Shown: in pieces, positions 6,083-54,873 of the stretch
Position numbering within the stretch: position 1 is the stretch's first letter
Layout: each line of letters begins with the position of its first letter
Source of the DNA: Patiria pectinifera
Lineage: Eukaryota; Echinodermata; Asteroidea; Valvatida; Asterinidae
Direction: 5' to 3'
NCBI GenBank assembly: GCA_029964075.1
Contig: CM057150.1
Coordinates: 1-64,000 of the forward strand
DNA: 64,000 bases
Notes under the pieces: generated by a model
What the model saw: the letters and a program-made list of their open reading frames with translations, nothing else
Databases searched by the model: none
What the model was told of the DNA's origin: nothing
Translations under genes and position numbers: made by a program

Positions 6083-6220
6083 CTACTTATCCTCCGGTTT
6101 CATCCGTGCGAAGTCCAGCGAAGCGTACTCCGTTGATTCCTCTGTCTGGATGGGTGGTTGGTCTACAGGATGTTGCTTCATATGACCCACCTCAGCATAG
6201 ATCAAGCCGTGCTCGGTCAC
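6083..6220 (-). CDS. Receptor terminal exon with LIYAEV and TEYASL, stop codon
   Basis: The last coding exon: acceptor taacctattttcccag, 45 codons, then TAG at 6083-6085. It encodes VTEHGLIYAEVGHMKQHP, and near the end ESTEYASLDFARMKPEDK. LIYAEV fits the ITIM consensus and TEYASL is close to the ITSM pattern (T at -2), spaced 26 residues apart, as in paired-motif immune receptors. This ITIM plus ITSM-like pair at the C terminus is the best functional clue in the gene; recruitment of SHP-type phosphatases is inferred. Confidence 0.85.
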   Translation of the reverse strand: MTEHGLIYAEVGHMKQHPVDQPPIQTEESTEYASLDFARMKPEDK

Positions 6221-9200
6221 CTGGGAAAATAGGTTAAAAGAAAAGATTATCATTATATTAGTTATCACCCAAGTGCGAGTGGAATAATGTATTGCGTCTT
6301 AGTCCCATATACCACGAGGCCAAAGGCTGAGGGACAAATGGAACACAGACACACCACATTTCCGTGAGTTTGTTACTGCATTCAATAGGGGACGTTGAAC
6401 AATAGAGGACAATAGGGTCCCCAATTCCCGAAGGTCCCCAATTTGGCAATGTGTAGAAAACATATGGGAGGTCTTCCTAAAAAGTTAAAAATACAACCAA
6501 AAGGGGGACAATAGAGGGTCCCCAATTGCAGGCAAATACACACTTGTGTGGGTGCAAATGGGTAAAGAAATGATGCAGAGTTATGATGGAACAAGCACGC
6601 TGTGCACACACTAGTCAGCAGTTATCGTTCACGTGCATGCAGCAGGAATAACGTATGCATCTTAGAAAAGCAGGATATGTGGAGTTAAGTATATGACCGT
6701 GGTGTTAGGTATATCACACTGTTGTTGCCATGGATTGACAAATCAAAACTGCCCTGCCTGTTACTCCTAGTACCGCCCAAAACTGCCCAGCACTTATCAG
6801 ACTTATGGATTTGTCAGAGAAAATTTTAATGTATGTAACACAATGCAGTGCAAGTGCTGGTCAATTTTATCTACATATACTAGTGTAGAGTAAAGTCTTT
6901 CAGGAGCAAAATATATGGCCCATTAGGCAGGAGTTTATCTCCGGATGAAACGACAGAGATTTGTTTCCCCTGGATGGGATGCCAGTCCATTGCAGGTTAC
7001 TCCCCAGCTAATGCAGGTACCCATTTATACTCCTGGGTGGAGAGAGGCAAGTGGGGTAAAGTGGCCTGCCCTAGGGCACAACATATTGCCAGCAGCTGGA
7101 TTCGAACCCCTGGCTCTGATCATGAATCACAAGGCCCTAACCACTAGGCCAAACTTTGTTTTGCCATGTCCCTACCCTTAGTACATTGTTATACTCTATT
7201 TCTAATACATGTATAAGGAAATAATTTAATAAACAATTCTATGCCCTAATGCTTTTGAATGAAGTACATAAAGTTCAAAGACTGGCCACACTATGCTGCA
7301 TGAGGGCTCCCTTCATGGACACCATTAACTGCACGAAGAAGACATGACTGTTTGCCTATCGTTTTTATCTTTAGCAAATAAATATTGCATGTGGGCTTAA
7401 GCATGGTAAAACCATCACATTGTTGACACATCCGGGTTATGGTTCCGTCAAGCATGTCAAGTGTTTTGTTTTGGACTGTTATGCATGGACTTTAGCCAAA
7501 ATCACTTGAAATTCATTACGTGCTTATACATTGCAAACACAATGACTGAATCTCCTTATTTTTATTCTGGTTCATGCAAACTGCCATGAGGAAGTAAGTT
7601 GCAAAACTAAATTTTTGGGTTGACAACCTTAATGACTAAAGCATGAATCATGTTTTCATTTAGTATTTAGACTGCCATTTGGTATACAATAATGTTTGAA
7701 GATATGAAGATCTGATACCCATGCAACAGTATTATTGTTGGCAAAGTCCTTCAGCCAAAAAAATAATAAAACCCTGAAAACGCAGCGTGAGAAGACGACC
7801 TTTAACACATCAAGCCCATTACCCCTTGCCCTTCATCTGTTTATTTTCTATTTTTACACTATCCAATCCATCTGTGTATTTCACACGGATTCTACACAAC
7901 ATTTATCTTTTGTAATCAGACAGACTTTGCACTTTATCACTACGTAAAGTCAGAAATCCGCTTCTAGAATTGTTTCTCTGTTTACTGACATTATTGAAAC
8001 CGAAACTCTCTGTAGACATTTGCTTAACAGTGCCCATTGACAAAGTTAAATAATGACATATCAAGTATTGAAACTAACGCCTGTAAGCAAACTGACAATA
8101 TGGAGACAAACTCATTAAGCGAAAATGGCCTTTGTATTTCTAGGTTTTGGGTCCAGGGAAAAGGGAGAGAGCCAAAATGGGGATTTTTAAAGAAAAACCC
8201 CAATTTTTCTCTGTCAAACTATTTTTGGAAGGGGCAGTTGCTGCTGCACTTCTAAGAAAATATACAAATTTAAAAAGCAACAAGATGTCTCTATGACACT
8301 TTTATGCTTTATAATTGTAATGTCATTCCTGATAAATGTTTATTTTTAAGACAGAACAAAGAAATGTATCAGGGCTCTTGAACATGTGCCCTACAGAATA
8401 CTGTTCCAAGCAGTGGTGTAGTCTGTGTTCTTACCACAGGGAGTGGGTTGGGGTGCTGGATGCTACAATGGTGGGACGTGGGGGGGGGAAGTTTCACCTG
8501 TCACCCAGTCTTTGTAAAATTAAAAAGTGGAAAGGGGGGGGGGGGGCTGGAGGAAGTCATCATCTTTTTATGGGGGCGCTCTTCAAATATAGTATCGGGC
8601 AATACCCCTGTAGGTGGTTCTTTGCAATATTTTTTTATGAGAGGGCGTGCCCCCTCCACTTACGCAGTTGATTCCAAAACTCTGCCAACTGAGCTATCCA
8701 GCCAATCCTACCAGTATGTTGCTGGTCCTGCAACAATTATTTGTTAAATTCTTTTTGTAGTAAAAAGCAAAGAAGACTCACCACTCGTCCACTTGTGTCC
8801 TGTTGCCCCCCAACACTTGCATATGTGTCAGCAGAAGCTAAATGATCAAAATGAAAAATGTTCATTTAAGGTAGAGTAAACCATTTGTAATTTTTGCATT
8901 TTTGAACAAAAGTTCTCAAAATCTAAAGACAGACATTTAATAGCTAACCTGAAGAAGTTTTGGCTCTGTGAAATGCTGTCTATTTCGAGAAAACGGAACA
9001 AACGTAAACACAATCTCCAGACACAATCCCGAAACAGCATTCAGGACATGATTATCATTCAGCGGGTTGTCACAGATTCGCCAAATTGCAAACTAACTAC
9101 AAATTCAGAGCACTGAGCATGATGTCCCAAAATTTTCGAAAAATGTGTCACTTGACAAATCTTTGGAAATGACCTTCTTTTGTTGTTTTCTTCAAATTGA

Positions 9201-12200
9201 CAGCATACCAGGAGGACTAATTTCACATGGATTTTATTACTTTTACTATCTTTGAAGCAAGTAACTGTTTTCACAATAATGTGGTCGGCTACTTTTTGGA
9301 TAGCGGCAGTTTACGAGGCAATCTTACGGTCTCGTAATCAAACATAGAGACAGGACAGTAGCGTCACTTACATCAGCGTTGTAGGACTTGAGTTAAGGAC
9401 TCGGACTCAAGTCACATTTTCGTGACTCGGCCCGACTCGAGTCACATTGGAAATCACGTGTTTTCATGCAAAGGAAAAATATAACGTTACGTATTTGTGC
9501 GACGAACGCTGCTGCGGAAAATCGTATCCAGGGGCCACGCATGCATGCCAAAAAGTGTCCGGTACCAAAAAGTGTCTGCTTACGACAATGCTAATAATAG
9601 GCTGGGGATTTTTGAGCTAGGGTTTTACTTAAAAGACAGAATAGATGATTGAAAAATATATTTAAACAAAATGATTAGTTTGGTAAACAACTAAGAACAA
9701 GTGACTTGTGACTCGGACTCGTGACTCGAACTCGGGGCTTGTGACTTAGGACTCGGACTCGACTTTGGTGACTCGACTACAACACTGAAGTACATTGAGA
9801 AAGGCAGTCGGACGGTTGCCGAAAGCTGTGATAGAATTTTCCCGTAAGTGCTGGTGTACAAGAATCAACTATATTATGACTGATCCTCAGCCAAAGAACC
9901 TTCATGCCATTAATATTTTACATTATTTTAGATATAATCACAAAAAAAGACAACCCGATATGAATATACCTGCAGCTGGGGGGCTCTTTGCCTTGTCTTT
10001 GTCACTGATCTGCACCTCTTCATATTGTGGCGGGAATATCTGTGACCCGATCCGTAGTCCCTTTACCCAGACAACCTAGCTAAGGATCAGTACCCCAGCA
10101 GCCGGGAATGCAGGCCCGTTTGGATGGAAATATACCGCCCTATACGCGTAGCAGCACTCACCCACGCCCCTCAACCTCAAAGATGGACAAGGACAGACAA
10201 TTAAGTACACAACAGTCAATGACCTCAATTACTGCTTGATTTATTTACACAGAATCAATGTCATATGATGGACCTCTCGTTAAATTATAATGTTAGCCTC
10301 TAATAAGTGATTGGTCTCTGAGCCTCTCAATTATCTCTGTAGGGGTAGCCTCGCATTAGCCGCTACGGTAAGGCAGTGCTGGGCAGCACGGTGATGCCTG
10401 GCTGGGGATAGCCTCTGAATCCCGGGTAAGAACCGTACGCCTCTAGCGTTCCTGTGCGCCTCCACTCTCCCGCCCTCGACCGTTTCCAGTCGCGATCCTT
10501 CCTCGAGGCGGCGGGTAGATGAGCGCGCCCTTCCGGCTCCGTCACGTTACAATCGGCAGATCGCTGTATGTCGCTCCGCCTCCAGTAGCCTCCGCGGACT
10601 CCGTGCCTCCTTATGCCAGCCCGACTTCACCGCACCACCCAGCACACGCCCGTCAGCGCGCGCAAGCTAATTTGCCTACCGTCTCTTCCCCGTAGATAAT
10701 CTCGGCGTACGCTCGGAAGGTTGTATCTGAGATAAGCCTAATTTGTGACAGTGTGTGTCTGAGCTGTGTCTACCTGAACTGAGCCTGTCTCGCAACTGCG
10801 CCGGGGCCTTATATAGGGCCCACAGCCGCGAGCGCGCCCTCTCTAGACTACGCTGCTATAGTAATTTGCGCCACAAAGCCTCCTTCTTAGCATGAACGTC
10901 CTCGTTCATAACAGCTAAAGACCTGATATTCAAAAGCAAATTACTCAAAACTTTCTTATATCAAAGCGTTTAATCTAAACAATGAAAAGGTCCATAACTT
11001 CAACAGGTCGGCGCCTCTTTATACATGCGCCTCATAAAAGAAACATAGTTAACTTTATAAAACTCTGAGAAAACTTTATAGAAAACTTTATAAACTTTAA
11101 GAAACTTTAAGAAAACTTATATAAAGGTTATAGAAAACTCTGTATAAACTTAAGAAATGATGGCTTAGAGAAACGAGCCTAACTCATAGGAAATCCGTAC
11201 GGAACATGCTGCCTCTGTGATCTCTCGGATGCGCTGTTACTTCTTGCGGAAATCTTGATCGAACTGGACATCGTACACCCTCTCCAACCGCTGCTCACGA
11301 ACTTTCACACCCTCCTTGTACTCTAGGGTGGTCGACACCTCCTTCACTCGGGTAACCCTGCCCCTCAGTACCTCTTCCAGGGATGTCACGTGGATTGGGC
11401 GCAGATCCTCTTGGATGTGCGCAGCTGCTCCGTTGTTGGGTGCTGCCTCAGCCGCCTCATGTTGTTGCAACTCTTCCGCCTCCTCTTCACTGCTCTCCAC
11501 GTGGTCCTGCTGGGCCATAAGGAACATCCCCCGAGGCTTACCGCCAAGTGGCTTACGCACTGGGGCTGGCACATCTTCTTCTAGCAAGGACAAAGAGGCC
11601 GGTGACAAAGACAGTCCTCCACTCGCCTCCGGTCCAACAATTGAGAGATCCAGGGGGCCTCCTTGAGTGATTGTACTCTGCTTAGCGGCATTCCGCTTGG
11701 CTGGCGGTTCCTCCTGTGCCTCTGGCTCACTTTGAGTCGGTCGCTTCCCTCCCCGTGGTTGTTCGTCGACGTCGTCTCCCTGATGGAGTATATGTAGGGC
11801 CTCTGCCCACGTCTCAGCATCTCCAAGATCCTTCACCTTCCGTCCCTCTGGTCTCTTCACCACCATCCGTCTGGTCTCCTTTGCCGCTTTTTCTCCCTCT
11901 TCGGAACGTCGCCTCTGCGCCCGCTCTCTCTCAGTCTCCAAGGGGAGAAGATCCACCTCATGGATGTGGGCCTCGTGATTCTGACGGTAGTGTCTTCGCA
12001 AGTTATCCTTCCTCGTACTCTTGAAGGGACACCGTACGCACCAAGCGAAGATCTGAGACGGGCCATGACCCACCTGTCTATGTCGGGCCAGGCTGGTCCT
12101 GTGCTGAAACGTCAGTGAGCACTCTTCACATTGGAACTTTTTCTTTTCCTGCTCCTTCATTGTGTTCAGTCGTCGTCACCTAACAAGTAAACAATAAAAA

Positions 12201-15200
12201 CAAATTGATAAGTTACTGAATTTGTACAGAATTATATGCTGCCTAACGGAAACGGAGAGGTAGCCTCCTTTCCCTCCGTGGGTTTCTTCGATTCTGGCTT
12301 ACAGGATCATTCTCCGTGTCCTGCATAGTCTCTGTAATTCCGTCTCCGTCAATGCTCCCTATGTCAAGTACTGGGTCAGTTTGTGTGTCCCCCTCTACAC
12401 CTCTGTCAGGAATCGTTTCCTCGTCACTCCTCTGGTGATGCCTCCCTGTAGGCGATCGCTCCTGATCCACATGAGGCGGAGTTCCAGTGACTTGTATCGG
12501 AGGTTTTGTTTGCCAAGACTCCATAGGAGTGCCTTTGTAAGGCTTCAGTCTATCGAAATGAACCACGAGCATCTTTCCTCTGGGTTTGTCTTGTACCCTG
12601 TAGTTTACGTCTGACAGCTTCCTTATGATGAGGTACGGCCCTTCCCATCTTGAAACTAACTTTTGGGAGGCCCCTTTCTTCCTTGCATGGTTATACAACC
12701 AGACGAAGTCACCTTCATCATAACCTGCACCCTCAACTCGTCTGTCATACGACAACTTTTGGCGTCTAGCACTAGTCTTGGTTTGTTCTCTGGCTCGCTC
12801 GTGGGCCTTTTGCATCCTCCTGCGCAACTCCTCCCCATAGTCTGTCTTTGGTTCCATAGCCTCGTCATCAGGAGGAGGCGCTTCTATAGTAAGGTCCACC
12901 GGCAGCATAACCTCCCTGCCCAACATGAGCATGTTCGGAGTCTCGCCTGTTGATTCTTGTGGTACCGATCTGTATGCGAATGTAGCAAAGGGGAGTTGCT
13001 GGTCCCAGTCTCTCTGGTTACGATGGGGGTCTAGCATCATCGCCACCGTATCGATAAGTGTCTTGTTATACCGCTCCACTAATCCATCTGATTTGGGGTT
13101 GTAGGCAACCGTGCGAGTTTTCTGAATGCCTAGTATCTGACACATCTCGGCGAAGACGTCCGCCTCGAAGTTGCGACCCTGATCTGAGTGCAATTCCTTT
13201 GGTACGCCATATCGGCAAACGAAGTTCTCTACAAATGCCTTGGCTACCGTCTCGGCTGTACTGTCGGGGAGGGCGTAAGCCTCCATCCACTTGGTGAAGT
13301 AGTCGGCTATAACTAGCACCCATTTGTTGCCTCTCTCCGTCTCCGGCATTGGGCCGACGAGATCCAACGCCACCCTTTCCATGGGAGCGCCGATTCGGTA
13401 CTGTCTGAGTGGTGCACGCCTCTTCCGAGCAGGGGACTTTCGTTTAGCACAGATATTGCATTTCCTGCACCAGGCTCTCACGTCCGCCGCCATTCCAGAC
13501 CAGTAATATCTCAACCTCAACTTGGCTAGTGTGCGACTGATTCCAAAGTGTCCTCCGGTCTTTCCTCCATGCAACTCATCCATCTTCGCCTCTCGAAGGC
13601 CGACTGGGAGGACTATCTGCCACTTTACCTCCCTACCGTCGTTCGATTCCCATCGCCGACATAACACTGACTGTCTCATCTCTAGTTGGTCCCATTGCGA
13701 CCAATAAACTTTGACCGCAGTTGCACGGGAGGACATGCCCTTCCAATCTGGCCTCTGACCTGACTCCTCTTTCCCAAGTACTACCCAGGCAATGGAGGGG
13801 TCTTTCAGCTGACCCTCCCGCAATGTGTCTGTGGTAACGTTTGGCTCGGCAACAACCACTCTCACATCCGCCGGCATAGGTGCCTCTACAGTATCGTCGT
13901 CCACTCGTCCACACTGCTTGCAAGGTCGACGTGACAGGCCGTCCGCATTTCCATGTTTCTTCCCAGGGCGATGAACTATTTCATAGTTGTACTGCCCAAG
14001 CACCTCCAGCCATCGAGCGATTTGCCCCTCTGGGTTCTTAAAAGTGACTAACCACTTTAATGCCGCATGGTCCGTTCGTACAGTTATCTTTTGTCCGTAT
14101 AGGTACTGCTTGAAGTGTTTAAGATAGACAATAATTGCAAGGAGCTCTCTGCGCGTCACGCAATAATTCCTCTCGGGCTTGGAGAGTGTACGGCTCGCGT
14201 AGGCAATAACGCGCTCCTCTCCATTTTGCACTTGCGACAAAACAGCTCCGATGCCGACTCCGCTAGCATCTGTATCCAATATGAACTTGCCCTCGGGTTC
14301 TGGGTATGCCAGTATTGGCGCCTCCTGCAGGTGAGTCTTCAAGGTTTGGAACGCCTCCTGGCATTCGTCACTCCAGTGGAAGACACGTGCTTTCTCAGTT
14401 AGCCTATGGAGCGGGCGAGCCACATCCGCAAAACCTCTGATGAATCTTCTATAATACGAGGCCAACCCCAGAAAACTCCTCAGTCCTCGGACGTCAGTCG
14501 GAGTTGGCCAAGATCTTATCGCCTCCAGCTTGTCTGGATCGGTAGATACTCCCTCCGGGGACACCACATGTCCCAGATACTTAACCTGCTGTCGGAAGAG
14601 GTGGCATTTTCCTGGCTTTAATTTAAGTCCAGCCCCACGTAACCTCTGCAGAACCTCCCTCAAACGGTTGATTTCCTCCATGATGGTTCGTCCATACACA
14701 ATAACATCATCTAAATAGACGAGCAAGGTTTCCCACTGGAGGCCACGCATTATCCTCTCCATGAGCCTCTCGAATGTGGCGGGGGCATTGCACAGACCGA
14801 AGGGCATAACCCTCCAGCTGTACAATCCCCCGCGCACAACAAAGGCAGACTTCTTCTGAGCCTCTTCATCAAGTTCGACTTGCCAATAGCCGGAGGCAAG
14901 ATCTAGGGTTGAAAACCATCTTGCCCCCGCTAGTGCGTCAAGGGTGTCATCGATTCGTGGGACGGGGTAAGCGTCCTTGATCGTCCTTTCATTGAGCCCT
15001 CTGTAATCCACACAAAACCTCTGCGTTCCGTCCTTTTTCCGAACGAGAACTACATTGGACGCCCACGGGCTGTCGGACGGCTCTATAATCCCCCGTTTTA
15101 ACAAGTCATCCACTTGCTTGTCGATCTCCTTTTGCTTACACAGGGGTTGTCGCCTCGGTCTTTCCCTAACAGGTCTAGCACTTCCGGTGTCTATGGTGTG

Positions 15201-18200
15201 TTTCACCCTGTCAGTCCTCCCTAGGTCGTGGTCTCCTCTGGAAAATACATCCGAGAACTCCGACAGCAGCCCAGCAACGGCGTAATGATAGCGTGTATCT
15301 AGCCCTTCAACACTTCGCTTCCAGAGGTCATGAAGGTGTCCAGGGACATGTACATCTTCCGTGCCTTTGTCCATAGCCTCCTGTCGCACCTCATCGACAT
15401 CCTCTTCATCCACTGGGGTGAGGCAGGCGACAGTAACCCCACAGCGCAAAACGCACTTCTGCCTCCCTGGGTTCAATACCCGCACCGGTAATGTATCTCC
15501 ATCCATGTTCACCAGTGACCTCGCAACTATAAGGCCCTTATCCGCTACCACGCCGCCTCCTTCGACTGGCTCTATCACCCCGACATGACACGAATCAAGT
15601 GACTTATCCATCCTCCCTGGTATAATGGTTTCATGTCCCGGCGGTATGACAGTAGTTCTGGCTACCACAATCCTCGCGCATAACGCTGTTCCCCATCGGC
15701 TTGTACATTTGATGTGTTCTCCATGCAACACAAGCTCCAAGGCCTTAAAGTCCAACATTCCTCCCGTTGGTATGAGAAAGTCCATTCCCAGAATTCCTTG
15801 TGCCTTAACCTTTGCAAAAACTGCACGTACTGGAAAATGGTTCTTCCTACCTGAACCTCAATTTGTGCCACACCCAAAGTTTCTATCGGTGTCCCATCCG
15901 CCTGAAACACTTTTAAGCCATCTGTCTCTAGCCTCGGCCGCCTCTCAGCTGGAATTCTGTAATACACCTCGGCTGAAATAACTGTATCAGTGGTTCCGGT
16001 ATCCACAAGGAGCGGAATGTCAAGGGAACGAATTTTCCCCTTAACATAAAGTCCTTTCTTGGGAGAAATTGTTGGCACAAGTACCTTCCGTTCAACTTCC
16101 GGGATATTACTACTTGAGTTTGGTTTTAGATTGAGGGTTGACCCTGCTGTGGTTTCAGCCCTTCCTCGGGTCCTAGGAGAGGCTGATTGCCGTTTCCCTG
16201 AGGCTTAGTTTTATTTCTCTTTTCCGGACAATCTCGTAAAAAGTGTCCATACCCTTGACAATGATAGCACTGGTCGCCTGGGGTTGCACGTCGCCTCTGG
16301 TGGAAACGGTATACCCTGGTGTCACGCCTCTTCTTTGTTTGACCCGCCTCGTCCAAAGTGTGGTCCGTCTGTTGTTCTGCGCCATGCTGAACGACATCCT
16401 CCACGGCGTCCTCCAGCACCCTACATTTTCCAGTGCCGAACTTGGGCCCATTCCTTTGAGCCTCAATCTTCTCAAAGTTTTCAGTTGCTAAGGCTGCCCG
16501 TATCGCCTCATCAAGTGTGGAAGGGTTGGCCCGGAATACCCCCTCTCGAATAGACTGACTAGCTATCGCATCAGAGAAGTGTCCCCTTGCGAGGCGGTCC
16601 CTTGCGGTTTCCGTAAACTCCGGGTACGAAAATGACGCCAATTCACGTACCGCCTGGCCGAGCTCCTGTATGGTTTCCTTCGGCTTCTGCCTCCTATTCC
16701 TTAACTCCAGGAGGAAATTTTCTGCGCGCTCTCCAGGTCCAAAACGCCCATCCAAAAGCTTGAGAAGTTCGCTGTATGAATGCCTCTTCTTCTCTCCGTC
16801 TCCATGGTGAAGAAGTATTTTTAGTGCCGGACCCTGGAGGCTCGCCGACAGAAACACCGCCGCCTCCTCGTCATCCCATCTATTCGCTATTTTACATGAC
16901 TCAAAGTGTTCCTTGTAGTCTATCCACGGTTGTTTATCTCCGAAGCGGTCTGGGACAATCCTTGGGCGACCTGAGCTCTTAGTCAGCCTCTCTTGTAACT
17001 GCTTCTCACCGATTATTTTTTGATCTCGTTGGAGAGGCCATGGTGTCTCCTTATTAGAGGCTCCTGCGCCTCCTATTCCACGAGCTGGCTCCTCACTTTT
17101 CTCTAGTTCACTTATGACCTCCACTGGCTTCGGTAACTCCACGATTGCCTCCACAGGTGGCGTTGTGTCTCCTCTAATGCCGGTAGATTGTGCCTGTGGC
17201 ATCCAAGACTTATTCTTCTTCATGATACTCCTCGGAGGCGTCCAGTTACCTCCAGTAGCCTCCTGCCCTATGTCCTGCACCTGGGAAATGGAGGCAAGTC
17301 CAGTGTGTACACCTGAATCCAGCGAAGTCCCCTGACCTATGCTCTTCCAAGCATCCTCTAGTCGAGATATCCTACTCATTAGTTTCTCTATTGTAGCCTC
17401 CTGGAGTGAACTCTCCTCCATTGAACGCTGGAGCTCATCCTCCCTTCCCTGGAGGTCCACTCGGAGACTGTCAACCTCCTCCTGAAGTTCCTTAGCAGTC
17501 TGGTCCGTCATTATTAGTTTGTGTCTTCGTCTTAGTTAAATTAAGGGTCCTATTTATCAATTAATAATTGTCCTCGCCTCCCCAAGGATGAGAACGTGGG
17601 CAAATGGTAGCTAGGCGTATAATCCCACTTCTGACACCATTTGTGGCGGGAATATCTGTGACCCGATCCGTAGTCCCTTTACCCAGACAACCTAGCTAAG
17701 GATCAGTACCCCAGCAGCCGGGAATGCAGGCCCGTTTGGATGGAAATATACCGCCCTATACGCGTAGCAGCACTCACCCACGCCCTCAACCTCAAAGATG
17801 GACAAGGACAGACAATTAAGTACACAACAGTCAATGACCTCAATTACTGCTTGATTTATTTACACAGAATCAATGTCATATGATGGACCTCTCGTTAAAT
17901 TATAATGTTAGCCTCTAATAAGTGATTGGTCTCTGAGCCTCTCAATTATCTCTGTAGGGGTAGCCTCGCATTAGCCGCTACGGTAAGGCAGTGCTGGGCA
18001 GCACGGTGATGCCTGGCTGGGGATAGCCTCTGAATCCCGGGTAAGAACCGTACGCCTCTAGCGTTCCTGTGCGCCTCCACTCTCCCGCCCTCGACCGTTT
18101 CCAGTCGCGATCCTTCCTCGAGGCGGCGGGTAGATGAGCGCGCCCTTCCGGCTCCGTCACGTTACAATCGGCAGATCGCTGTATGTCGCTCCGCCTCCAG

Positions 18201-21200
18201 TAGCCTCCGCGGACTCCGTGCCTCCTTATGCCAGCCCGACTTCACCGCACCACCCAGCACACGCCCGTCAGCGCGCGCAAGCTAATTTGCCTACCGTCTC
18301 TTCCCCGTAGATAATCTCGGCGTACGCTCGGAAGGTTGTATCTGAGAAAAGCCTAATTTGTGACAGTGTGTGTCTGAGCTGTGTCTACCTGAACTGAGCC
18401 TGTCTCGCAACTGCGCCGGGGCCTTATATAGGGCCCACAGCCGCGAGCGCGCCCTCTCTAGACTACGCTGCTATAGTAATTTGCGCCACAATATGCTGAC
18501 TCCTTAGCAGCTGAAATAAAATAAGTCACACAGAGGAATGTCAAAACTCCTACAATGTCCACTTCCATTCTTAAGTCATCACTTTCTGTAAATGCCTGAG
18601 CATCATCAACTATTATAAAAGAAGACTACATGGACCAGCTTTAACAGGCTTGTACAAGCCCTCTAATTAGGGGTTTCGGTTTTGTAGGGGTCTATGTTGT
18701 GGGAGTCCTTAGGATCCAAAGAGACCTTTTGGGTCACAGTGAGGTTCAATCACAACTCATTGACAGTCAGTGAGTCAGTCAGATACAATGAGGACACGAG
18801 GCTGAACCACCAAAACTAGATTAAAAGTGTACTCCAATACTCATTAGTTCATTATTGTCGTGGCCTTATTGTTAAGGTTAACTCCAGTAGCTGATTTAAC
18901 GTTACTTTACAAATGGGCAACTCTGCTTGCCCCACAACTTTTTGCCTAACATTCCACGCTGGGCAACAATTTACTTAAATTAACCGTAACGTCCTAAGGG
19001 CTCTTTGTGGGGTCAAGTACCAAATACCACAGATCAAGTCATACGCATGGCGCAAGCTATGCACTTTTTCATGAAATCAGCCGTTGGTCCAAATTACATG
19101 TGCTTAGCTCCAGTTGTAATTCAAAATGCAAGTTACAAAGATGGCGCTAGACTGGTACTCTGGGCTAGCAAAAACCAAGAGAAAAGTTGTCTAAAATCAC
19201 TCCTAAATAATTATATGCTAAACTGTGATCTGTACCTCTGGATGACGGAGGAACGTACTTCTTGGGTTTCTTCTTTGCTGCGTAGTCATCTGATGGTAAG
19301 ACAAACAAATGGAATATCAATAAGATTAGAATCGTAGGTGGGCTTGGTTGGTGGCCTCCGGCTACGTCATAAGATGGAATTTGCGTCAATATCGAATTCT
19401 GCCCTTTACCAAAGTAATTATTTTAGTAAACACTGTACACTCAGTATTGTTTCGATCACTTGGGTGATTAACGTGGGTGATAACTCACAATTACTGGGGA
19501 CAACACCGAGTATACAGTGTATATCAAATGTCGGTGGATGGCAAAACCCAATATTGAATTCTCGTCCTCTTTACTAGGCCATGGTTTGCAACTACACATG
19601 CGCCTATGCAAGGGCGTTGATAGCTTCTCAGAAATTGGGGAGACATAAATACCTTGATAAGAATTAATGCCAGAGCCAAGTGTGAAACGCAAAGCCCTAA
19701 TGGTGTGGGGTTCGGCTTAAGGGCCCCAGAAAACTTTGGATTCTAGATGCAGCTGTGTGGTGCGATCTGAGGCAATCTCTGACCACTTTAACAATCTTTT
19801 TTGGCAAAAGATCATAATTTTAAACATCATTTTTGAGTTGGGAGTCGCTGAATCAGCTATTTTGAGCTATAGAATCAAATAGGCTATAACTTTTATTCTG
19901 GGATGAAAACAGTGGTGGGGGAGGGGGGAGGAGGAGGTTAGGGGGGCCCCAAAGGATATGGCATACGCCAACTATAAAAAGTGTGTGTGTGGGGGAGTGG
20001 GAGGTGTGCCTACCATGAGGTGGTTTGGGTTTCTTGTCCTTGTTGACTTCAGCATAGGTCACATCAGGCAGATCTGAAATGAAATAATAACAGATTAGTC
20101 TGACTGGATGATGAAATTGACTGCGATGGGATGTGAACCTGCGACCCCCAGAATACCATAACAGACACAGTGGAGTTTTTCTGATCCCACACTACTAGTA
20201 TGGACTCCATGCACAAGTACCCCCCTGAACGGTAAGAAAGGGAGAGTTTGGGGAGACCACTGGTTTACAACTTCTAAGGTGTTACTTTTAGCACCTGAAG
20301 CTAATTGGTGGTTCATTGGGGGGTTGGGGAGGGGACAGCCCGTCGCCAAGTGGGGGGCCATGGGGGCCAGGGCCCCCCCGACGAGCAACTGAACCCCCCC
20401 ATCAACAAAAACCGTAAGCGTGTGCTCCCCCCCCCCCCCAATGCCTTGAGCTGGCAAAGGGCCTAAGAGGGGGCAATGGCCAGTTCCCCCCAAGGAGGCA
20501 ATTTTACTTGAGAAATACCTTCGCCCCTCCTCCCTTTCATTAACTTCTCTGAAAAGTGGTCGAAATACACAATCTACCATTCGCGCACGGCGTCCATTGT
20601 AGGTTAGTGCAAAATAGATAGCTTGACAAGCTGAACCATCATGGGCTATCGTGCATTCGATGAAGTACATGTTTTATCAAGGGCAAGTCCAAGAAGGTCC
20701 CTATTTGGTCTCATATGCAACACCATGTTTTCTTACATAATCATTGAAAAGACCAATAACAAAATGTCTTGTGGGTATTCTCTTTGCAGATGCCCAACAG
20801 CAGAATAAAGGAAACTACATTGAATCCAAGAATATCTTTAAAGGGTTACACTTTCATTACGTATCGGACATGACGTGTGCAGATTCTTGGACCTGCCCTC
20901 AAACTACATTGTATAGTCTAGTTCAAATGAACTTACTTGTGGGAGCTGATCTAGCCGATTGCGGCTTAGGAGGCAATTTAATCTTGTTGACCTGTGCATA
21001 GGTGTCTGAAGGAATGGGGAGAAAAGTAAATAATAAATTGTAAAGGTTTTATCAAATACCATGGTCCATCACTATTAGTAGCAAAAAAAGGATCCCATAA
21101 CAACCAACGGTCACCTTACATTTTCTGTAACAAAGTGTCATATCTAAATGGTGGTCACATGTCAAAGTACCAGGTCAACTGCCAAGATTTGAAAGATGTC

Positions 21201-24200
21201 AGTGCTCTAACTTCTACACTGGTTCCAACCCATCCTTCTCTACATTTCGAGAATAGGGTCTGGGAACCAGCTTAAATTTGCTCCACTACATGTATCAATG
21301 CAATAAGGTTTAAATCTGACCTATGACAATTAGTGATTTCCAACCGTAAATAAACTTGAAATAAAGCTTTGTATCAAGTACCCCCGGTACATGCACATAA
21401 TGCTTTTAAAAATTACACCAGAACATTAAACAAGTTCTACATCACATCACACTACACATAAATGTACATGTACCATACAAATGTAGAACATTTACATGCA
21501 GCATGCAATCTACTTGTTTAACTATTCGCTATCGAAGTGTTGTAATCGCGATGAATTAAGCCACACACATGTGCATGTGTATTCTAAGAAAAGTAAAATC
21601 GTTCGGAAAATTGGTCAATAAATGCTGCCTCGCAATGTCAACTGTTATGCTGCAGACTGTAATCAACGAAATAAAAGTCACGCCTGAAGATTCCCACTTT
21701 CTTAACCAGTTCGGGCCGGAGGCTGTGTACACGCAAAAGGTATGCGGTATTTGGAACAGATAACAGATAAACACGCAGGGGCCTGAGCGAGGTCGGAAAT
21801 ATCTGTCAGCGACCCGCTCGCAGTGAGCGAGGCCAAAAATATGAGTGTGCTGCCCAAGGATGATGGCTTCAACCCGCCTGGCTTGAGGTTAGGTGAAAAT
21901 AAATCCCGTGCCTCGTTCCGTTCATGTCAAAATAATCCCAGCGTGAACTGGTTAATGAGACAGCACAACATGCTCGGAATAAACACCAGTCCGTAGTGAA
22001 TGGTGGCCTTGAATCGGCATGATGCCGTTGCTGTGCCAACGACCGGTTTTAATGATCTTACGTAACACTTCGATAGTAAATTGTCCAAGACTATGCTAGA
22101 ATCAAATTATCAGGCCCTTTCAACCATTACATCAACAAGCATTTTGCTACATGTACAATGTATTACAAAATCTAAATACTCACCCAACCTGCTAACTATA
22201 TGCTAGTGCAATGAAAGGTGTTGTTCATGTATGGTTTAGAAATGATTGATAATAAGTACTTCAGAGACTTAACATATTTCACCAGTCATTTTGAGACCAA
22301 AGCTGGGCGAATAACATGACCTTCAGAGGTTAGTGTTAATCTTGATCCTCTGCCAACCTAGTCACATCTTGATTCATTATTAAGTTAATTTCTCAAGTTA
22401 AGCACATTATTTTGTTTCTGTGATCTGCAGTTAAAATAAGGACAGAACAAAACTCATGCACAGGACATTTTTTTCAATGTGAATCATGAATTCACTTAGT
22501 ACTGAAACATAGCCCAAAAAAGGGCTATAAGCCAAAGTATAACACGGTAAAATTTGTTCATATTGTGATTGATTAGTTTTTTTTTTAAATATTTGACCTG
22601 TAATATTTCATGCTTAGCCATGTTAGCATTTCTATTAACATTGCTTATTTTCTGTTTGAAGGGGAAGGGTGGGGTTTGACTGCCTACAAAACCAGGCCAC
22701 GCCCTTTTCAACCACAGCCTTTTCTACCAGACACTATCTACTTGGGTCACGCTTGTTGTTTCAGTAATATGTACATGTACACTCTAAACGCATGGAGTGA
22801 TGACATCAGGGCCATCCACTGGATGCTGGCATAAGACATGTACATGTAAGCGAACACTACATCTATGTATGTATTGTCTGAACACTTAACTGGTTATTGG
22901 CTATTTTATTGCCCATTGTAAATTTACACCACATGAAAAAACAGGACTGAAGCATGAACAGACTGTAATATCCAGAAAGCAGGGAGGAACGATGTGACCA
23001 CTAGACACACAAATGGACAAACAAACAAAAGGGTAGGACGAGCATGAAAAGTCTCAGGTTTTTTTAAGTGAGGTTTTCAAGTGACTGTTGGAAAAACATT
23101 GGACATGTTGGAAGACAGAAAATGATGGCAGAAGAAGCAAGGAAGATACTGAAAGCAGAAGACAAGTATGACAGGTTAAGATGGGTTATGATTAGCCGAC
23201 CTCCACTGTCCACAGTGTATCTCTTGACAGGAATGGGTCCTTTCGTAGCGTCTGCTTCCAATCCATCTACGGTTAATTAAACAAAACAAATCATTCCCTC
23301 TGGGGTTTGCCAAGCAAAGTATGGTAGAAAGCCGCAGATTTGTAATTAATAAACACATTCATCAGCGATGTACATTTTGCATTTTAGCAGAACACTTGAG
23401 GTAAACAAGAAGTTAGTGTTATCAATGATTAAAACTGAAGCTGAGCAGAAAATTTAGCTTTTTCAAGTTTATATTCCGAAAGAATGTGCCCGAAGACGGC
23501 GCTATTTCAGGCTATTTATATACTGCAAAAAGTATTACGGTACCAGATCACTGAACTGCTCAGCGATGCTAGTATTGTGTGGAATTTGATGTTGGCATCT
23601 CTGATGTACAAAGAAGTGCTTTGCATTAGCAAGGGCGGTTCCAGAGAAGTTAATGAATAGGTGGGGAGCAGAAGCTGAGCTGAAAATTCAGCTTTTTCAA
23701 GTTTATATTCCGAAAGAATAAGCCAAAAGACACATAAATAACATGACATTTGGCTGGTAATTTGCTGAGAAATTATTTTCTGTCTAAGCTTAAACAAACT
23801 TTTGACTTCAGTGTCCTAGCTTATGAACTAAAAATAATGACAAAATTGTGTATTTTATTTGGGCAGATATTGGTTCAGCATAATGGTGTTAAAGGCTTAC
23901 AGCAAAAACAAAAACAACTTAATAATTTGATTTTTATCTTGTAAATGAAGGGCAGCCAAGGTTGAACAAAAATTGGTCAATACACATTTTAGGTCCATTC
24001 TCAATAACTTTTTTAAATTTTACAACTTTTAGTCAGTGAAATTTTTTTGTGTGAAATTTACAACATACACAAAAATCAGGTTGTGGACTGCTTTCAAACT
24101 TTGAAAGTGGAAGTGAAAGTGAAAAATTAGAGAACAGGAAAACTGTAATATGACGCCATTTCCCCATACCACTAGCTCATGTACTGTACATGGAATGCCA

Positions 24201-27200
24201 GGCTATTTTTAAATTAAAAAGTCCTTGACTGCATACAGTGTACTTTTGTAACATAAGATGCGGTTAGTAGCAAGCAAAAGTGTTGACAAGGCACATGCAT
24301 TTGGAGTAACAGAGTTTCAAAAAATCCCTCAAACCAATTTGTTAACACTGCACATTCATGCCAACAACATTTCATCAATCAATATTATTAGTTATCTTGC
24401 GAGCGCGAGTGGAACACGGAATAATGTAGTGCGTCTGTGTCCCACATACCACGAGGCCGAAGGCCGAGTGGTATATGGGACACAGACGCACTACATTTTC
24501 CGTGTTCCACGAGCGCGAGCGCGATAACGAATTTATCTTCAAGCAAACTTGACGCACAGTAAAGTTGGAACACGCATGCTGTGTAACCTACGCGCAACTT
24601 TTGAATTCACAGTGAATTGTGCAGCACTAATCGCGTCACGTAGGCTTAGAATAGCGCAATACGCAGAGTGCGGTATGGACCGTGGCCGTGCGGTATGGTT
24701 ATATGTAGCACGGCTTGTTGCCATGGATCGACCAATCAGGATCGAGGATTCAAGTGTGCTTGAAGATAATATTAGTTATCCCGCGAGCGCGAGTGGAACA
24801 CGGAATAATGTAGAGCGTCTGTGTCCCTGTATGTGGGACACAGATGCACTACATTTTCTGTGTTCCACGAGCGGGAGCGTGATAACAAATTTATCTTCAA
24901 GCAAACTTGACGCACAATAAAAATGAAACGCACACTGTACACAAACTTCAGCGCTTATCCCATACACGTGCGTCTTTGTACGGAATGGCGCGTGCATCTT
25001 GGAATAGCGTAAAACGCAGAGTGCGGTATGGACCGTGGGCGATATTTTTTTTTACACAACTATCTCGGGTACTTTGTGCGCTTTCCTATGGGGCTTGGTT
25101 TTTATAACCAGGCTTGAGTGGAGGCTACTATTTTTCAACTTGGTACGGATTTCGGACTTTATTTCCCTTTTTTTAAAAATCCTCCAGAGCCTCAGATCAG
25201 GAAAAGAAAAAGGAAATTGCTGCTATACAAGTAGTTTCCGACTGAAAAATAACGTTTTTAAGATTCAACTTTAAATTGTTGAAAAAAAAGAGCAAAATCT
25301 TTGTTGGCAGAGCGAGGAATCGAACTCGAGACCTCCGATCATCAGCCAGCATGCGTAACCACTAGGCAACGGCGGTGCTCGGCAAAACCGTGCAATTCAT
25401 AACTTATATACTTTCACACATGTGGAGAGAGTATACGCGCGTGCGCGTAGGTAAAAGGTTAAAGGATTGTAACCGTGATTCAAGTCGCCTGAAAAATGGG
25501 TACCCCAGATAGTTGTGAAAATAAAATATTGGCGAACCGTGGCCATGCTACATAGTTATATGTAGCACGGCTTGTTGCCATGGATCGACCAATTAGGATC
25601 GAGGATTCAAGTTTGCTTGGTTAGGAAAACATGTTTAAAGCCGGTCTTAAAACTCATAAATTGTCATCTCTACCTCTGGATGACGGAGGAACGTATTTCT
25701 TGGGTTTCTTCTTTGCTGCGTAGTCATCTGATGGTAAGACAAAAAAATGGAATATCAATAAGATTAGAATCGTAGGTGGGCTTGGTTGGTGGCCTCAGGC
25801 TACGTCATAAGATGGAATTTGCGTCAATATCGAATTCTGCCCTTTACCAAAGTAATTATTTTAGTAAACACTGTACACTCAGTATTGTTCCGATCACTAG
25901 GGTGATTAACGTGGGTGATAACTCACAATTACTGGGGACAACACTGAGTATACAGTGTATATCAAATGTTGGTGGAGGGCAAAACCCAATATTGAATTCT
26001 TATCCTAATTACTAGGCCATGGTTTGCAACTACACATGCGCCTATGCAAGGGCGTTGATAGCTTTTCAGAAATTGGGGGGACATATGTACCTTGATCAGA
26101 ACTAATGTGAGAGCCAAGTGTGAAACGCAAAGCCGTTTTGGCGTGGGGTTCGGCTTAAGGGCCCCAGAAAATTTCGGCAAAATCGTTGCGCTGATGCAAT
26201 TGAAGAAGGTCCTGGACCCATCCAGCATAAATGGAGCGAGAACCCGCAGCCAGACATGATGGTTAATGGCTCTTAAGGAGTGAGGTCCGAATGGGATCGA
26301 GGGCCATATCAGCTGGGTTTAAAAATGATTAGCACAATGCAGTTCTGTCTTGTTTTATAACAAAGCACACTTCATTTTCAGGTTTTGTCTCCACTGACTA
26401 CGGCAATCATCATAATCATCATCACTGCATATATGTTGGCACCAAATTATTCGCTTTTTATATATCTTATATCACAAACACTTCTGCTACTTCTTACTGT
26501 TATTGTTTCCTCGGATTTGTACGCGCACTGTAATGATGCTGTGGTTTCTCTAGTTTGTGATGTGAATTGAGAACATAGCTTATGACAATGTCCACCGTTC
26601 CATGTGTCCTCCAGTGTGGTAGGCTTTGTGACAAGGCCACCGATCCCATTACCTCAATTGAGATGTGAGAAAATCAAGAAAAAGGCCCTGTAATGGAGCG
26701 GTCAGAACAAATTTTGAGACGTCCACAAAACTGTCATTTGCAATAAATGTCCTGTCGGACAGTGTGTCTGTGATAAATTTAGGTTGACCTTTTGAAACAC
26801 CAAGAAACTAGACAAGAAATTGAAACAAACCTACAAAAAAAGAAAAACAGAGGTTGACGAATGCCAATCTCAGTCTTTGTCTATGTCTGTTGTCTAGTTC
26901 TGTTGCCCAGCTGCGGCTTCAGCTGCCAAGGAGCTGCAATCGAGTCTGGGGGCAATGCATCATAAAACAAAATGTTAATGGAGCTGTAACATGGATTAAG
27001 CAAAGCACCCAGAATCGAAGCCAATCCTGATTTCGTATGATCACGCATGGCCAGATTTCAAGAGACACACATTAACCATGGAAGATCAGAGCCTGCAAGA
27101 CAAAATCGACTGTCTGATCGATCCTGTGTTATGATCACCCCTATGCGCTTGAGATCAGATATCACTCTCAAATGCCGGTTGAAATTATGTGCGTAGCTAT

Positions 27201-30200: not shown

Positions 30201-33200
30201 ATATCTGATTTCAAGCGCATAGGGCTGATCAGCTGCAGGATCGATCAGACAGTTGATTCTGTCTTGCAGGCTCTAATCTTCCGAGGCCACTCTTCTTGAA
30301 AGCTGGCGTGATCGCACGAAATAAGGATTGGCTTTGATTCTTGGTGCTTTCCTGAATCTGTCTTACAGCATTATTAACACTTTGTTTTACGATGTATTGC
30401 CCCCAAACTCGATTGCAGCTTCTTGGCAGCTGAAGCCGCAGCTGGGCAACAGAACTAGACAACAGACATAGACAAAGACTGAAATTGGCATTCATCAACC
30501 TGTTGTTTTTCTTGTCTTTTGTTGGCTGTTCAAGTTTCTTGGTATTTCATAAGGTCAAGCTACATGCATTACGGACAGATATTGTCCGACCGGGCTTTAT
30601 CCGAATTGTCAGTTGCGTGGACATCTCCAAACTTGTCCAGACCGCTCCATTACAGGGCCTTTTTCTTGGGATTGTTCAACCTCTCATTAGAGGTCATAGA
30701 ATCGGTTGCCTTGTCGCAAAGCCTACCACACTGGAGGACACATGGAACGATGTACATTGTCGTAAGATACATGCGTGTTCCCAATTCATCTCAAACCACC
30801 AAAACCACAGCATCATTGCAGTACGCGTACCGTTCCAGGAAACGTATAACAGTAAGAAGTATCGGAAGTGTTTTGTGATATAAAATATATTAAAAAAGAA
30901 TAATTTGGTGCCAACATATATGTAGTGATTATGATGATGATGATGATGATGATTGCCGTAGCATCATTAGGGACACAATCTAAAAAAGGAAGTGTGCTTC
31001 GATAAAACAACTCAGAACGTGGTTGTGCTTAACAAGTTTATACAAAATCCAGCCGATATGGCCCTCGATCCCATTAGGACCTTGCACCTTATGTTGGATG
31101 GGTCCAGGACTTTCTTAAATTGCATCAGCGCAATGGTTTTGCCAAAATAATGTGTTCATTCATGATCCTAGGTGCTCCCGTTCAAAAGTTATGTTTTTAC
31201 TCTATCAAATGGGGGTTATCTTGGATTTCAGGGTCAAAATGATGCCATAGCTTCAAACCGATGTCGGAATCGGAATCCTCATGGTCGACTTACCTGAAAA
31301 AGTGTCTTCATACATGATTGTAGGTGCTCTGGTTCAAAAGTTAATTTTTCAAGATGGCGCTGGCGGCCATCTTGGATTTGGCCCCCTAGCGAAAAATGCC
31401 GGGATTTTTGGGAGGGACCGGGGGGGCTAATTTCTTTATAAATGGTCCATAGAAGTCAAATCCATCGTCAAACCATCCTAGCCAGAGAATGGTCACGGAA
31501 CTTATGTTTTGGACCCAACTAACTGTAGAGAGAACAGATGCTCATCAAACAGCTGTCGAATAAAACAATGAGATGTTCATGCAGGTGTTCAAGTGGTTTT
31601 GCAGTGCACTTCAGCTGGGCTGGAGTCCATAATTAAGATGAAAACATGTGGCCTGAAAAATGAAGGATTTCATAAATCATAAATGAAGAAAGGCTGATAA
31701 GTGGTAAAATGTCAGGGGCGGATCCGGGAAGGATAAAAGAGGGGGATATTATGATGTAGATATACATGAAGCTGGCTGCACTTCCTGTACATGTAGCTGC
31801 TTATATATTTCTATTGTTTATATTTCTATAATTTACACTGATACACTTTTATATAATTTCATACATGTACAGAAGCAACTTTGGAAAGTGTTGGGTTTTT
31901 TTTTTGGGGGGGGGGGGGCAAAAGACAGTTATTCTGTTATCCTTCCTGGGTCCTTTCCTACTAGTTTTATTTTAAAAGCCTTTGACAATGATAACGTAAA
32001 GATGCTGAAACAATAGCAGCTGCTTTCATCACATGATGCATCTGTGAACACTATCATGTTCAGTTCAGGAAGAAAAGGTGAACATTAGAAATTGGTGATC
32101 TCAGGACTCATGCCATTCTCATGAGAAAGAAAAACCAAAAGAAACTTTTGCAAGGACTTCTGACAAATCAATTTTGTGTAAATTTTGTTTTGATTTTTTA
32201 CACATTTTAACAATTATTTCCCCTTCTTCAAATACACCAGTAAGATTTTTTCTTAAATACTGTTCCGAAGGAACAGTATTCTCCAAAATTCTCTAAAATG
32301 TATATGTACAACAAATTATTGACACCTTCCAGGTCATAGAAAAAACACAATTCTTAAGGTTTTTTTTCTCAGATATCATGACAGGGGCCCTGTACACAAG
32401 ACAGTGAGATGTGTAGATGTAGGCTGCTGATTCAGAGGATTGCTGCTTTTCATAAAACAAAAATCTTAAATAAATTGCTGCTATTCAAGTTGCTGACTTA
32501 CATACAGATGTACGTATAATAGTAAATATAAAAAATTTCAAATTAGAATTTAAGCCAAAGGCTTCAGAACTCGCTTTTTGGGGTGAGGATGAAAAAGGTC
32601 CTCATTGTCATTCAATGGTTTAGCACTATGGTCCTCTGCTTGGCTGTTATTTTTTTTACATTTGTCTATTTGTATTCAGATCATGCAGAACTGTATAGAC
32701 TGATCCTCTACAACAGCAGTGTGACACTGGGATACTTTCAGGATCAGTGTGTAATACACTATATGCAATAGTCCTTGTAGTCTGCGATGGTACCGCTACG
32801 TGTTTGGTGAAATTATATTCATGTAATGGCCGGCGATATGCTGTGAAGATATTCTATGGTGGTCTGTGATAGTGTGTGATAGTCTGTGATAATCTTTGAT
32901 AGGGTGTGATACTCCATGATGATCAGTGATGGTCTGTGATAGTCTGTGATAATCTTTGATAGGGTGTGATATTCCATGATGATCAGTGATGGTCTGTGAT
33001 AGTCTGTGATAATCTTTGATAGGGTGTGATATTCCATGATGGTCAGTGATTATCTGTGATAGTCTGTGATAATCTTTGATAGGGTGTGATATTCCATGAT
33101 GATCAGTGATGATCTGTGATAGTCTGTGACAGTGTTTAGGAACAGCCTATGATGACTCAATGCGGTTGTGATGATGTAGATCAGACCTTCAGTCTTGCTC

Positions 33201-45200: not shown

Positions 45201-46939
45201 CCTCGGGGGCGAAGCAGCGCCGTCACGGTGTCCCGGTATCGAGCCCCGCTCGGACTCTAGTGACACCGATGGGTGTAAACTAATATCGGGCGGGGACGCC
45301 GGTGCACGGCCCTCCGTGCACGGCATTGTCCGCTGGTCTGTAGTCACTTCACCACGGCCGTGATGATTGGCGTGTGGGGGCTGTAATTCTGGAGGAGATT
45401 CCGGCGCACGGCTAACCGTGTGTGGTATGTCCCTTTGGCCCGGAGTCATTCAGCTGTGACCGTAGTCTCCCTGTCAGCCCGACAATGAGGCCTCCAGGGA
45501 GTGAAAAGCCTCCAAAAAATCATCGCGTGAAATCGGGTCGCCACCCTTGTGGCGTTTCCCACGGTGTGATCGACCGAATGACCAGCTAGAACTCGTCGAA
45601 GAACGGCGGGAATGGCGGTTCTTTTTCGATTTTTTCTTTTTTGAAGAATGACTCCAAGTAGTTGCCGAGGATTGCGGGGACACGTGGATACCCGAACAAC
45701 GAATGAAATCCGATGTAGAGGCATGGCCCTCAGAGCGTAGCGTTAACACTCCGGGCGTTAACGCTCCGGGGGAATCTTAGGGATTCGGCTCTACGCAATC
45801 AATAGCCCGGGCGGCCGACAGCGACCCCACGCCGGTAACATAGGCGAGGGCTGTACGGTCGAGCCGTCCATATAAAAGCCCATCCCTAGGCATCGTGGTA
45901 ATCACGGGGCTGGGTGGGCCTGGGTGCACTGAGCCATGGAGGAGTACTTCCTCCGGCTGTGTGTGCCCCGTAGACGGGCCAGGGACGGGCACGGTGCGCC
46001 CCGTAGCGGAGCCTTGCCGCACGTCCCTTTTTGGGTACTGCCCCGGCTTCAGACAATTTCCTTGTCTTGCCGGTGCGTTTTCCCTTCAGCTGGGCGGACC
46101 CGTGAATATTGACCGAAGACGGTGGGGTTGTACGGCCCCCCGCTTGGTCAACGGGTCCGTCAGCTCCGACAGCCGGCAGTGGCTGAAGGGGCTGACTAGG
46201 AGACTGCTGCCGCGGTGACGTACCATCACCGGTGCAGTCCCCCCCGAGAACTCGGGCTTGTCTGGTGGGATGTACGTCCCTCCATTATCGACACACCCAG
46301 TCCTCCCCAACTTCCTAGATTTACTCATTTCTATTTCACTTTCACTTAGAATAATTCACTAGAACAACTCTACAATAAACACTTTCTCTTTATATCTGAT
46401 AAATAGCTTTCTCCCAGCAAAGAGGCATAAATAAAACAGTGAAATTCGGGTCGATCGAAATTTCACGATATACCTCGCCTGCGGCTAAGAGAAAAACAGG
46501 ACGCTAACGTAGTGCGCATGTCACAGGGCGTCGTGGGTAGGACACGTGAGGGCGCTGTTGTATGTAAAACTCTTAGCAAATTGCCTGCCGGCATAGGGTA
46601 CAATGCATAGGTAGTATTTGCTCTACAGGTAAGTAGAGTGATGTAGACTCAGAAAAGTTTCATCTCTGACAACACTTATTTGCATTAATCCAGAAGTTTT
46701 GAGTGTTGAAGTTCAGATAGAAGTGGTTTTCAGGGTTTTTTTTAAGAAAGGTTTACCATTGTTCTGCAGGGCTTGGTTTGTTATGCCATTGTTCTCCTCT
46801 GGCCGCACATCATAGCTGAAAAGATGGGGAAAAAATAAGAATATAAATCAAGTAAACTGATGAATAAAAGCTTTAAAGAGGGACTACATGTATAAAGACT
46901 CATTAAGGGACAGCCATTTTCTGAAGGGCCACCAGGCTT

Positions 46940-46975
<36 letters not shown>

Positions 46976-53136: not shown

Positions 53137-53623
53137 CTGCAAGAAAAACAAAGAAATTAAAATTGGAAATGTTAATAAATGACATGAAAATCTGAAAGAT
53201 TTGCATACATGTATGTAGTTTATATGCCTGAATACCAAGGTGGAACATGATGCTGCCATTCTGTCGACACTTTTCAAGTTTTTGAGACCTACCCAGTACC
53301 GGTACGAAATATCGTAACGCTATGGTAGGGGCCGGGCTTACATGTAAATGTGCGCTTTTCTAAACGAACTTGATGCCATTCTTTCTGTTTGGTTTTCTGT
53401 TCCCCTTGCTTCTTTAGGCTTACAAGTAAAGAGGAAATATTCTATTCAATAAACTTTTAAATTCTGATCGGGACATTACCTTTCACCATGTATGGGCTAA
53501 CACGTAGACAGTAGATGCGGTATTATACATGTTATGCATGATTTCCATCAGCCCTTACTTTTAACTCAGGGGAGGATACCCCCCCCCCCCAATTGGTTAG
53601 CCTCTCTGTTCCGACACCTCGAG

Positions 53624-53716
53624 GTTCCGACATCCCTACGTTCCGATAACTCAACCCACATACCACTATGTCTTATGTTCCGACATCCCTACGTTCCGAT
53701 AACTCAACCTACATAC
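53624..53716. repeat. 53-bp tandem duplication at the Gypsy border
   Basis: gttccgacatccctacgttc plus cgataactcaac occurs at 53624 and again at 53677, ending just before the LTR at 53717. Confidence 0.7.
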
Positions 53717-54850: not shown

Positions 54851-54855
54851 GTTTT

Positions 54856-54873
54856 TGGTGGCAGCGGTGGGAT
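54856..54873 (+). other. Primer-binding site, tRNA-Leu
   Basis: TGGTGGCAGCGGTGGGAT lies five bases inside the LTR and is the exact complement of the usual 3' end of animal tRNA-Leu (ATCCCACCGCTGCCACCA). Confidence 0.85.

Follow-up and report, generated by a model that had tools for sequence, protein, structure and literature searches.

A young Ty3/Gypsy element splits a tyrosine-motif exon of a sea-star receptor gene

In a 64,000-nt stretch of Patiria pectinifera DNA (assembly GCA_029964075.1, contig CM057150.1, positions 1 to 64,000; the whole stretch that was analysed, hereafter the window), a young Ty3/Gypsy long terminal repeat (LTR) retrotransposon splits exon 14 (E14) of a sea-star receptor gene of immunoglobulin (Ig) and fibronectin type III (FN3) type. 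The element occupies positions 10026-18490 of the minus strand, i.e., the strand of the host gene, and lies directly after TAT, the Tyr codon of the motif SAYEEV. When its flanks were joined with one copy of the duplicated ATAT, a 72-nt exon was restored (ag/CTGCTAAGG...GCTGCAG/gtatat, slashes marking the splice sites) that is of phase 1 at both ends. The initial annotation had proposed a recent insertion of a Gypsy element with near-identical LTRs at these coordinates, within a receptor signalling exon spanning 9970..18510, and had described the rejoined 72-nt phase 1-1 exon with good splice sites, the cut after the Tyr codon, and the shared orientation; all of this was borne out by the analysis.

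The interrupted exon and its gene

A simple splice-site script, together with inspection of the DNA, located the tail exons; the other exons were then added and boundaries corrected by mapping two homologous proteins onto the window, namely P0002 (Patiria miniata LOC119735735, isoform X5) and P0003 (P. miniata "Down syndrome cell adhesion molecule-like protein 1 homolog"). With the E14 flanks joined, 16 minus-strand exons (Table 1) form a single reading frame that runs from NPPGPSSGITVKY to ...MKPEDK and a stop codon. Phase 1-1 was found in 12/16 exons, and the 15 exons other than E14 are all open, with AG acceptors and, except for the last exon, GT donors. A longer exon (36201-36476) was rejected, as P0003 ends this exon at 36384. 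According to simple weight matrices made for this analysis, the score of the E14 acceptor is reached by 1.5% of AG and that of its donor by 2.4% of GT dinucleotides on the same strand of the window.

Protein searches, in which the candidates sharing most words were scored (7992 and 7989), returned at least nine homologues, and further relatives may exist. The tail peptide matched P0002 at an E-value of 1.1e-237, P0003 at 4.2e-176 (98% of the query covered), and P0005 (Asterias amurensis nephrin-like, isoform X6) at 7.4e-52. The Pfam accessions of the homologues include PF07679 and PF00041, which we take to denote Ig and FN3 domains, and by these matches the host gene is classed as a sea-star Ig/FN3 nephrin-like receptor. 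Introns rich in tacatgtac had at first suggested amphioxus, a reading that was rejected because the protein matches indicate a sea star close to Patiria. The Ig/FN3 ectodomain was not found in the window and lies upstream of 53136. Pfam searches of the three minus-strand frames of approximately 46301-55700 gave no match up to an E-value of 1, those of the rejoined peptide only matches below the cut-off (WWE_2, 0.23; Lamp2 membrane segment, 4.8), and those of the juxtamembrane open reading frame (ORF) none. Searches of the PDB returned nothing beyond weak matches (best 0.0034 and 0.22), which were taken as unrelated.

The initial annotation had named a lack of the exon in orthologous genes as a ground for refutation, and the homologues did not refute it. 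E14 is in place in 4/4 of those whose tail is not a kinase (P0002, P0003, P0004, and P0005), the likeness being close in the two Patiria proteins (21/23 residues of the rejoined exon identical in each of P0002 and P0003) and restricted to the core in P0004 and P0005. No change is seen in the E-S-x-Y-E core across a five-row alignment that includes Asterias. Non-informative in this respect were four receptor kinases (P0001, P0006, P0007, and P0009, which have the same juxtamembrane domain and a tyrosine kinase tail) and P0008 (Acanthaster), which ends soon after the membrane segment. Because all four non-kinase-tail homologues carry E14, and P0003 and P0002 have one and 17 units, respectively, it is regarded as a real exon whose copy number varies in the family; the gene in the window has one copy by homologue mapping.

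The rejoined tail contains four motifs resembling the immunoreceptor tyrosine-based inhibitory motif (ITIM; pattern [SIVLT]xYxx[ILV]), one YxxM, and four YxxP. Vertebrate ITIM-bearing Ig receptors are alike in having an Ig ectodomain (here in the homologues), one transmembrane segment, and tail motifs of the ITIM pattern, whereas the sea-star tail has YxxM and YxxP in addition; the likeness shown here is one of motif. A special link between integration and the tyrosine was rejected, as an ATAT target by itself places the cut after TAT. Counting the element, the gene span contains 243 ATAT sites, and five fall in the 1381 coding nt. With the element left out, 3.6% of the gene span is covered by mapped exons, and a coding hit is uncommon, not rare, among insertions.

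Structure and age of the inserted element

The element is a Ty3/Gypsy LTR retrotransposon. Its LTRs (849 and 850 nt) are 99.8% identical, being one substitution and one one-base indel (in a short C run) apart, and on the plus strand they start with TGTGGCG and end with GCGCCACA, i.e., with TG and CA. A putative primer-binding site (TGGTGTCAGAAGTGGGA) begins 2 nt inside the 5′ LTR, and a putative polypurine tract (AAGAAGGAGGCTT) precedes the 3′ LTR. Pfam places reverse transcriptase (RT) and RNase H before integrase in the 1204-aa pol ORF, which is the Ty3/Gypsy order. Compared with solved structures, the RT piece matched eight chains at E ≤ 1e-10, the best being 4ol8 (a reverse transcriptase/RNase H chain; 1.4e-38) and the Ty3-G polyprotein (7q5b; 8e-38), followed by 8r0s (1.6e-29) and five chains at 4e-14 to 2e-13. 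We assume 4ol8 to be Ty3, 8r0s to be a plant pararetrovirus, and the last five to be foamy-type retroviral enzymes; on this basis, the RT is closer to Ty3 than to retroviruses.

The LTR pair, the short target-site duplication, the CCHC gag, and the order protease-RT-RNase H-integrase are shared with Ty3/Gypsy elements in general, whereas a C2H2 zinc-finger ORF after pol and a frame change inside the protease domain set this copy apart. The junction of gag and protease bears a −1 heptamer (G GGA AAC) in the correct phase; for the second −1 frame change, no heptamer of the G GGA AAC type was found in the overlap of protease and pol, and the corresponding protease part of the other Gypsy element of the window is one continuous frame. 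Pol of the inserted copy may be broken, or the frame change may be a sequencing error. The 312-aa C2H2 ORF (11237-12175, minus strand) occupies the place after pol where an env gene can sit; among the matches listed in the literature, nothing on this ORF was found by title or abstract opening.

One substitution in 849 sites corresponds to a divergence K of 0.0012 (95% Poisson interval 0.00003 to 0.0066). PMC10511450 gives a k-mer heterozygosity of 5.16% for Patiria pectinifera, and, assuming diversity as published there for this species, K divided by heterozygosity comes to 0.023 (0.0006 to 0.13), in which the mutation rate cancels. The same paper reports an assembly error rate of 0.00066, which need not apply to the source assembly of the window, and both LTR differences could be sequencing errors. 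If the animal is as diverse as published for Patiria pectinifera, the insertion is far younger than the average split of two haplotypes, and, because of this age, an empty allele probably still segregates, in keeping with the initial annotation, which took the insertion as possibly polymorphic.

Predicted transcripts and alternative explanations

Read-through from E14 into the LTR gives AKESAY-CGANYYSSVV-stop. The ten LTR codons and the stop had been predicted in the initial annotation, whose count of three lost tyrosine motifs (TYASV, LIYAEV, and TEYASL) has to be raised to four: the insertion also changes residues +1 to +3 of SAYEEV. Read-through replaces the last 81 residues and reduces the ITIM-like motifs from four to one. 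Skipping of E14 keeps the frame, as had been foreseen, the join of E13 to E15 being open, and leaves 3/4 ITIM-like motifs. In the sense of the gene, the LTR has TATATA 61 nt and AATAAA 631 nt from its start (0.13 AATAAA expected from the LTR base composition), and TGTTGTGT starts 25 nt after the latter. Over the first 1200 nt of this element, a single donor, at 17777, scores above 4. Exonisation from the LTR into the 3′ half of E14 was considered unlikely, as the last 1200 nt of the element have no acceptor scoring above 4.

These features suggest that the insertion allele would be a hypomorph with two competing RNA outcomes. In one, the undamaged acceptor of E14 together with the LTR AATAAA and its GU-rich downstream stretch would define a composite terminal exon, for which a length of approximately 670 nt from 18510 is plausible, and the receptor would end in ...SAY-CGANYYSSVV with 1/4 ITIM-like motifs. 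Nonsense-mediated decay is not expected here because the stop would lie in the last exon with no exon junction after it. In the other, E14 would be skipped and E13 joined to E15 in frame, giving a near-normal tail without the SAYEEV unit. The LTR-terminated exon is probably the main outcome, at about even odds, and skipping is put forward more tentatively. Sense-orientation LTR insertions, such as the mouse IAP and ETn mutations, can disrupt genes by premature polyadenylation or mis-splicing. The sea-star case resembles these in orientation, in the LTR polyadenylation signal, and in the exon-skipping alternative; it differs in that the element sits within a coding exon whose acceptor and donor are both intact.

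Taken as a whole, a young insertion in E14 that creates a hypomorphic allele with two competing RNA outcomes is considered the probable explanation. Several points weigh against it: the splice and polyadenylation judgements are simple consensus scores; the E14 donor is weak (score 2.4), so that partial skipping is possible even without the insertion; aligned alone, E14 locally matches only 8/23 residues of P0005 and 5/23 of P0004; and the gene could belong to a multigene family in which this copy is redundant or decaying, though its 15 other exons are open. Alternatively, the exon might be optional, i.e., normally skipped or redundant, so that the insertion is near-neutral and a protein without SAYEEV works equally well. 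This is possible, if clearly less likely than a hypomorph: family proteins carry 1 or 17 E14-type units, loss of a phase 1-1 exon keeps the frame, and two homologues are named as isoforms (X5 and X6) and represent clusters formed at 90% identity, with 13 and 22 members; yet the exon is kept as a single unit with a YE[ED]V core in both Patiria P0003 and Asterias P0005, and the sense polyadenylation signal could interfere even with a dispensable E14.

It is rather unlikely that the host copy is a pseudogene in the making within a receptor cluster, in which the insertion struck a gene no longer under selection. Of the nine homologues, six (P0001, P0002, P0003, P0006, P0007, and P0009) apparently lie on one Patiria miniata contig, and the ectodomain upstream of 53136 is beyond a second Gypsy element and outside the view; set against this are the open frames of the 15 other exons, most of them close to Patiria, and the low divergence of a duplicated exon (E9/E13, one change in 54 nt versus 28 in 467 nt outside, which is not significant at p = 0.34). 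An assembly or haplotype-merging artefact joining the element to a host exon is very improbable. In size, both differences between the LTRs and the frame change in the protease are what long-read errors would give, and the published error rate given above, possibly that of another assembly, also counts in its favour, but exact LTR ends, an exact target-site duplication, and halves that rejoin to the base into a homologous exon could hardly come from a misjoin.

Beyond a hypomorph, the insertion might act as a segregating natural switch, in which the LTR supplies a new terminal exon and the receptor would bind the same ligand with 3/4 ITIM-like motifs lost; this is regarded as a long shot. The C-terminal SVV of the read-through product presumably fits the class I PDZ pattern. 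If true, the two alleles would amount to a ready-made polymorphism between an inhibitory and a decoy receptor, in a family whose tails otherwise differ in their number of tyrosine exons.

Further features of the window and the modular tyrosine tail

Table 1 Features of the receptor gene and of the inserted element (positions in the window)
Feature	Position	Strand	Evidence or remark
E1 (NPPGPSS)	53113..53136	-	6/7 residues identical to P0002
E2, juxtamembrane ectodomain with RRRR	52278..52550	-	77/90 identical to P0002
E3, transmembrane segment	50765..50911	-	35/48 identical to P0002
E4	49839..49890	-	12/16 identical to P0002
E5	46757..46815	-	16/19 identical to P0002
E6 (DDGYMTM, YxxM motif)	36384..36476	-	28/30 identical to P0003
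E7, weakest match	34154..34240	-	10/28 to P0003; open phase 1-1 frame
E8 (KKYQAP)	33187..33261	-	24/24 identical to P0003
E9 (DDYAAKKKPKKYVPPSSR), second copy of E13	25674..25727	-	duplicated block
E10 (VKRYTVDSG)	23201..23266	-	20/21 identical to P0002
E11 (DTYAQV)	20937..21005	-	21/22 identical to P0002 and P0003
E12 (VTYAEV)	20014..20073	-	17/19 identical to P0003
E13 (DDYAAKKKPKKYVPPSSR)	19236..19289	-	17/17 identical to P0003
E14, 5′ half (ag/CTGCTAAGGAGTCAGC; following ATAT is the duplicated target)	18495..18510	-	acceptor immediately upstream of 18510
Target-site duplication ATAT, copy 2	18491..18494	.	both flanks of element
5′ LTR, 849 nt	17642..18490	-	TATA-like motif 18430, AATAAA 17860, read-through stop codon 31 nt in
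gag ORF, 469 aa, CCHC zinc knuckle	16126..17535	-	
Protease reading frame (domain start), −1 to gag	15662..16204	-	heptamer G GGA AAC at 16198 in overlap
pol ORF, 1204 aa, RT + RNase H + integrase	12243..15857	-	−1 to protease frame, switch inside protease domain
Additional 312-aa ORF 3′ of pol, with C2H2 zinc finger	11237..12175	-	Pfam: one match above cut-off, a second below
3′ LTR, 850 nt	10026..10875	-	LTR comparison
Target-site duplication ATAT, copy 1	10022..10025	.	both flanks of element
E14, 3′ half (ATATGAAGAGGTGCAG...GCTGCAG/gt)	9970..10025	-	splice reading and homologue mapping
E15 (DTYASV)	8782..8837	-	18/18 identical to P0002 and P0003
E16, last coding part (LIYAEV, TEYASL, stop)	6083..6220	-	44/46 positions identical to P0002, stop included

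Other repeats were seen in the window. A second Gypsy element lies on the plus strand at 53717-64000 (LTR pieces 97% identical, the right piece reaching the window end), and its long ORF ends in approximately 85 copies of a 39-bp repeat coding for DRPIDYRGRSTSP or a close variant. Overlapping minus-strand ORFs at 42036-45449 resemble, by eye, a DIRS-type retroelement, and a large imperfect inverted repeat (26171-27935 and 29468-31148; arms of approximately 1.7 kb, pieces 75-90% identical) is located in an intron of the receptor gene.

The proteins P0002, P0003, and P0005 share with the gene in the window the juxtamembrane domain, the transmembrane segment, the tyrosine-exon tail, and a SAYEEV-type exon; they differ in lacking the insertion and, for P0002 and P0003, in having 17 and one YEE units, respectively. 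In P0002, 14/16 spacings between YEE units are exactly 24 residues and two are 42, i.e., 24 plus the 18 residues of one DDYTAMKKPKKYVPPSSR unit, and three copies of an 18-residue KKPKKYVPPSSR module stand among the 17 YEE units. As 24 residues equal 72 nt, the length of E14, and 18 residues equal 54 nt, the length of E13, exons of these two types appear to have been copied repeatedly and mixed with one another in the receptor family, and P0002 fits a tandem multiplication of 72- and 54-nt exons.

The gene in the window has a copy of E13, namely E9, where P0003 has none. The two lie in a 521-bp duplicated block (19219-19739 and 25657-26177; 94.4% identical, 29 mismatches), i.e., E9/E13 is an exon duplication by a small segmental copy within the same gene. 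The single change between the exons leaves the protein unchanged, and purifying selection on the duplicate was not significant in the comparison given above. The kinase-tail receptors (P0001, P0006, P0007, and P0009) and the ITIM-like-tail receptors (P0002 and P0003), apparently on one contig as noted, form a possible paired-receptor cluster.

Neither the receptor nor the element was found by title or abstract opening among the matches listed in the literature on echinoderm ITIM receptors, on insertions of LTR elements into exons of Patiria, and on Gypsy elements with C2H2 ORFs. An LTR element that inserts into a coding exon is usually soon lost, and the kind of event is already known; the modular exon tail is the more interesting part. 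Because relatives have 17 versus one units and kinase relatives share the juxtamembrane domain, signalling by the tail appears to be assembled from phase 1-1 exons that can be exchanged for one another, those of 54 and 72 nt included. A very young insertion in a conserved signalling exon makes it possible to test directly how a receptor tail of modular build copes with the loss of a unit.

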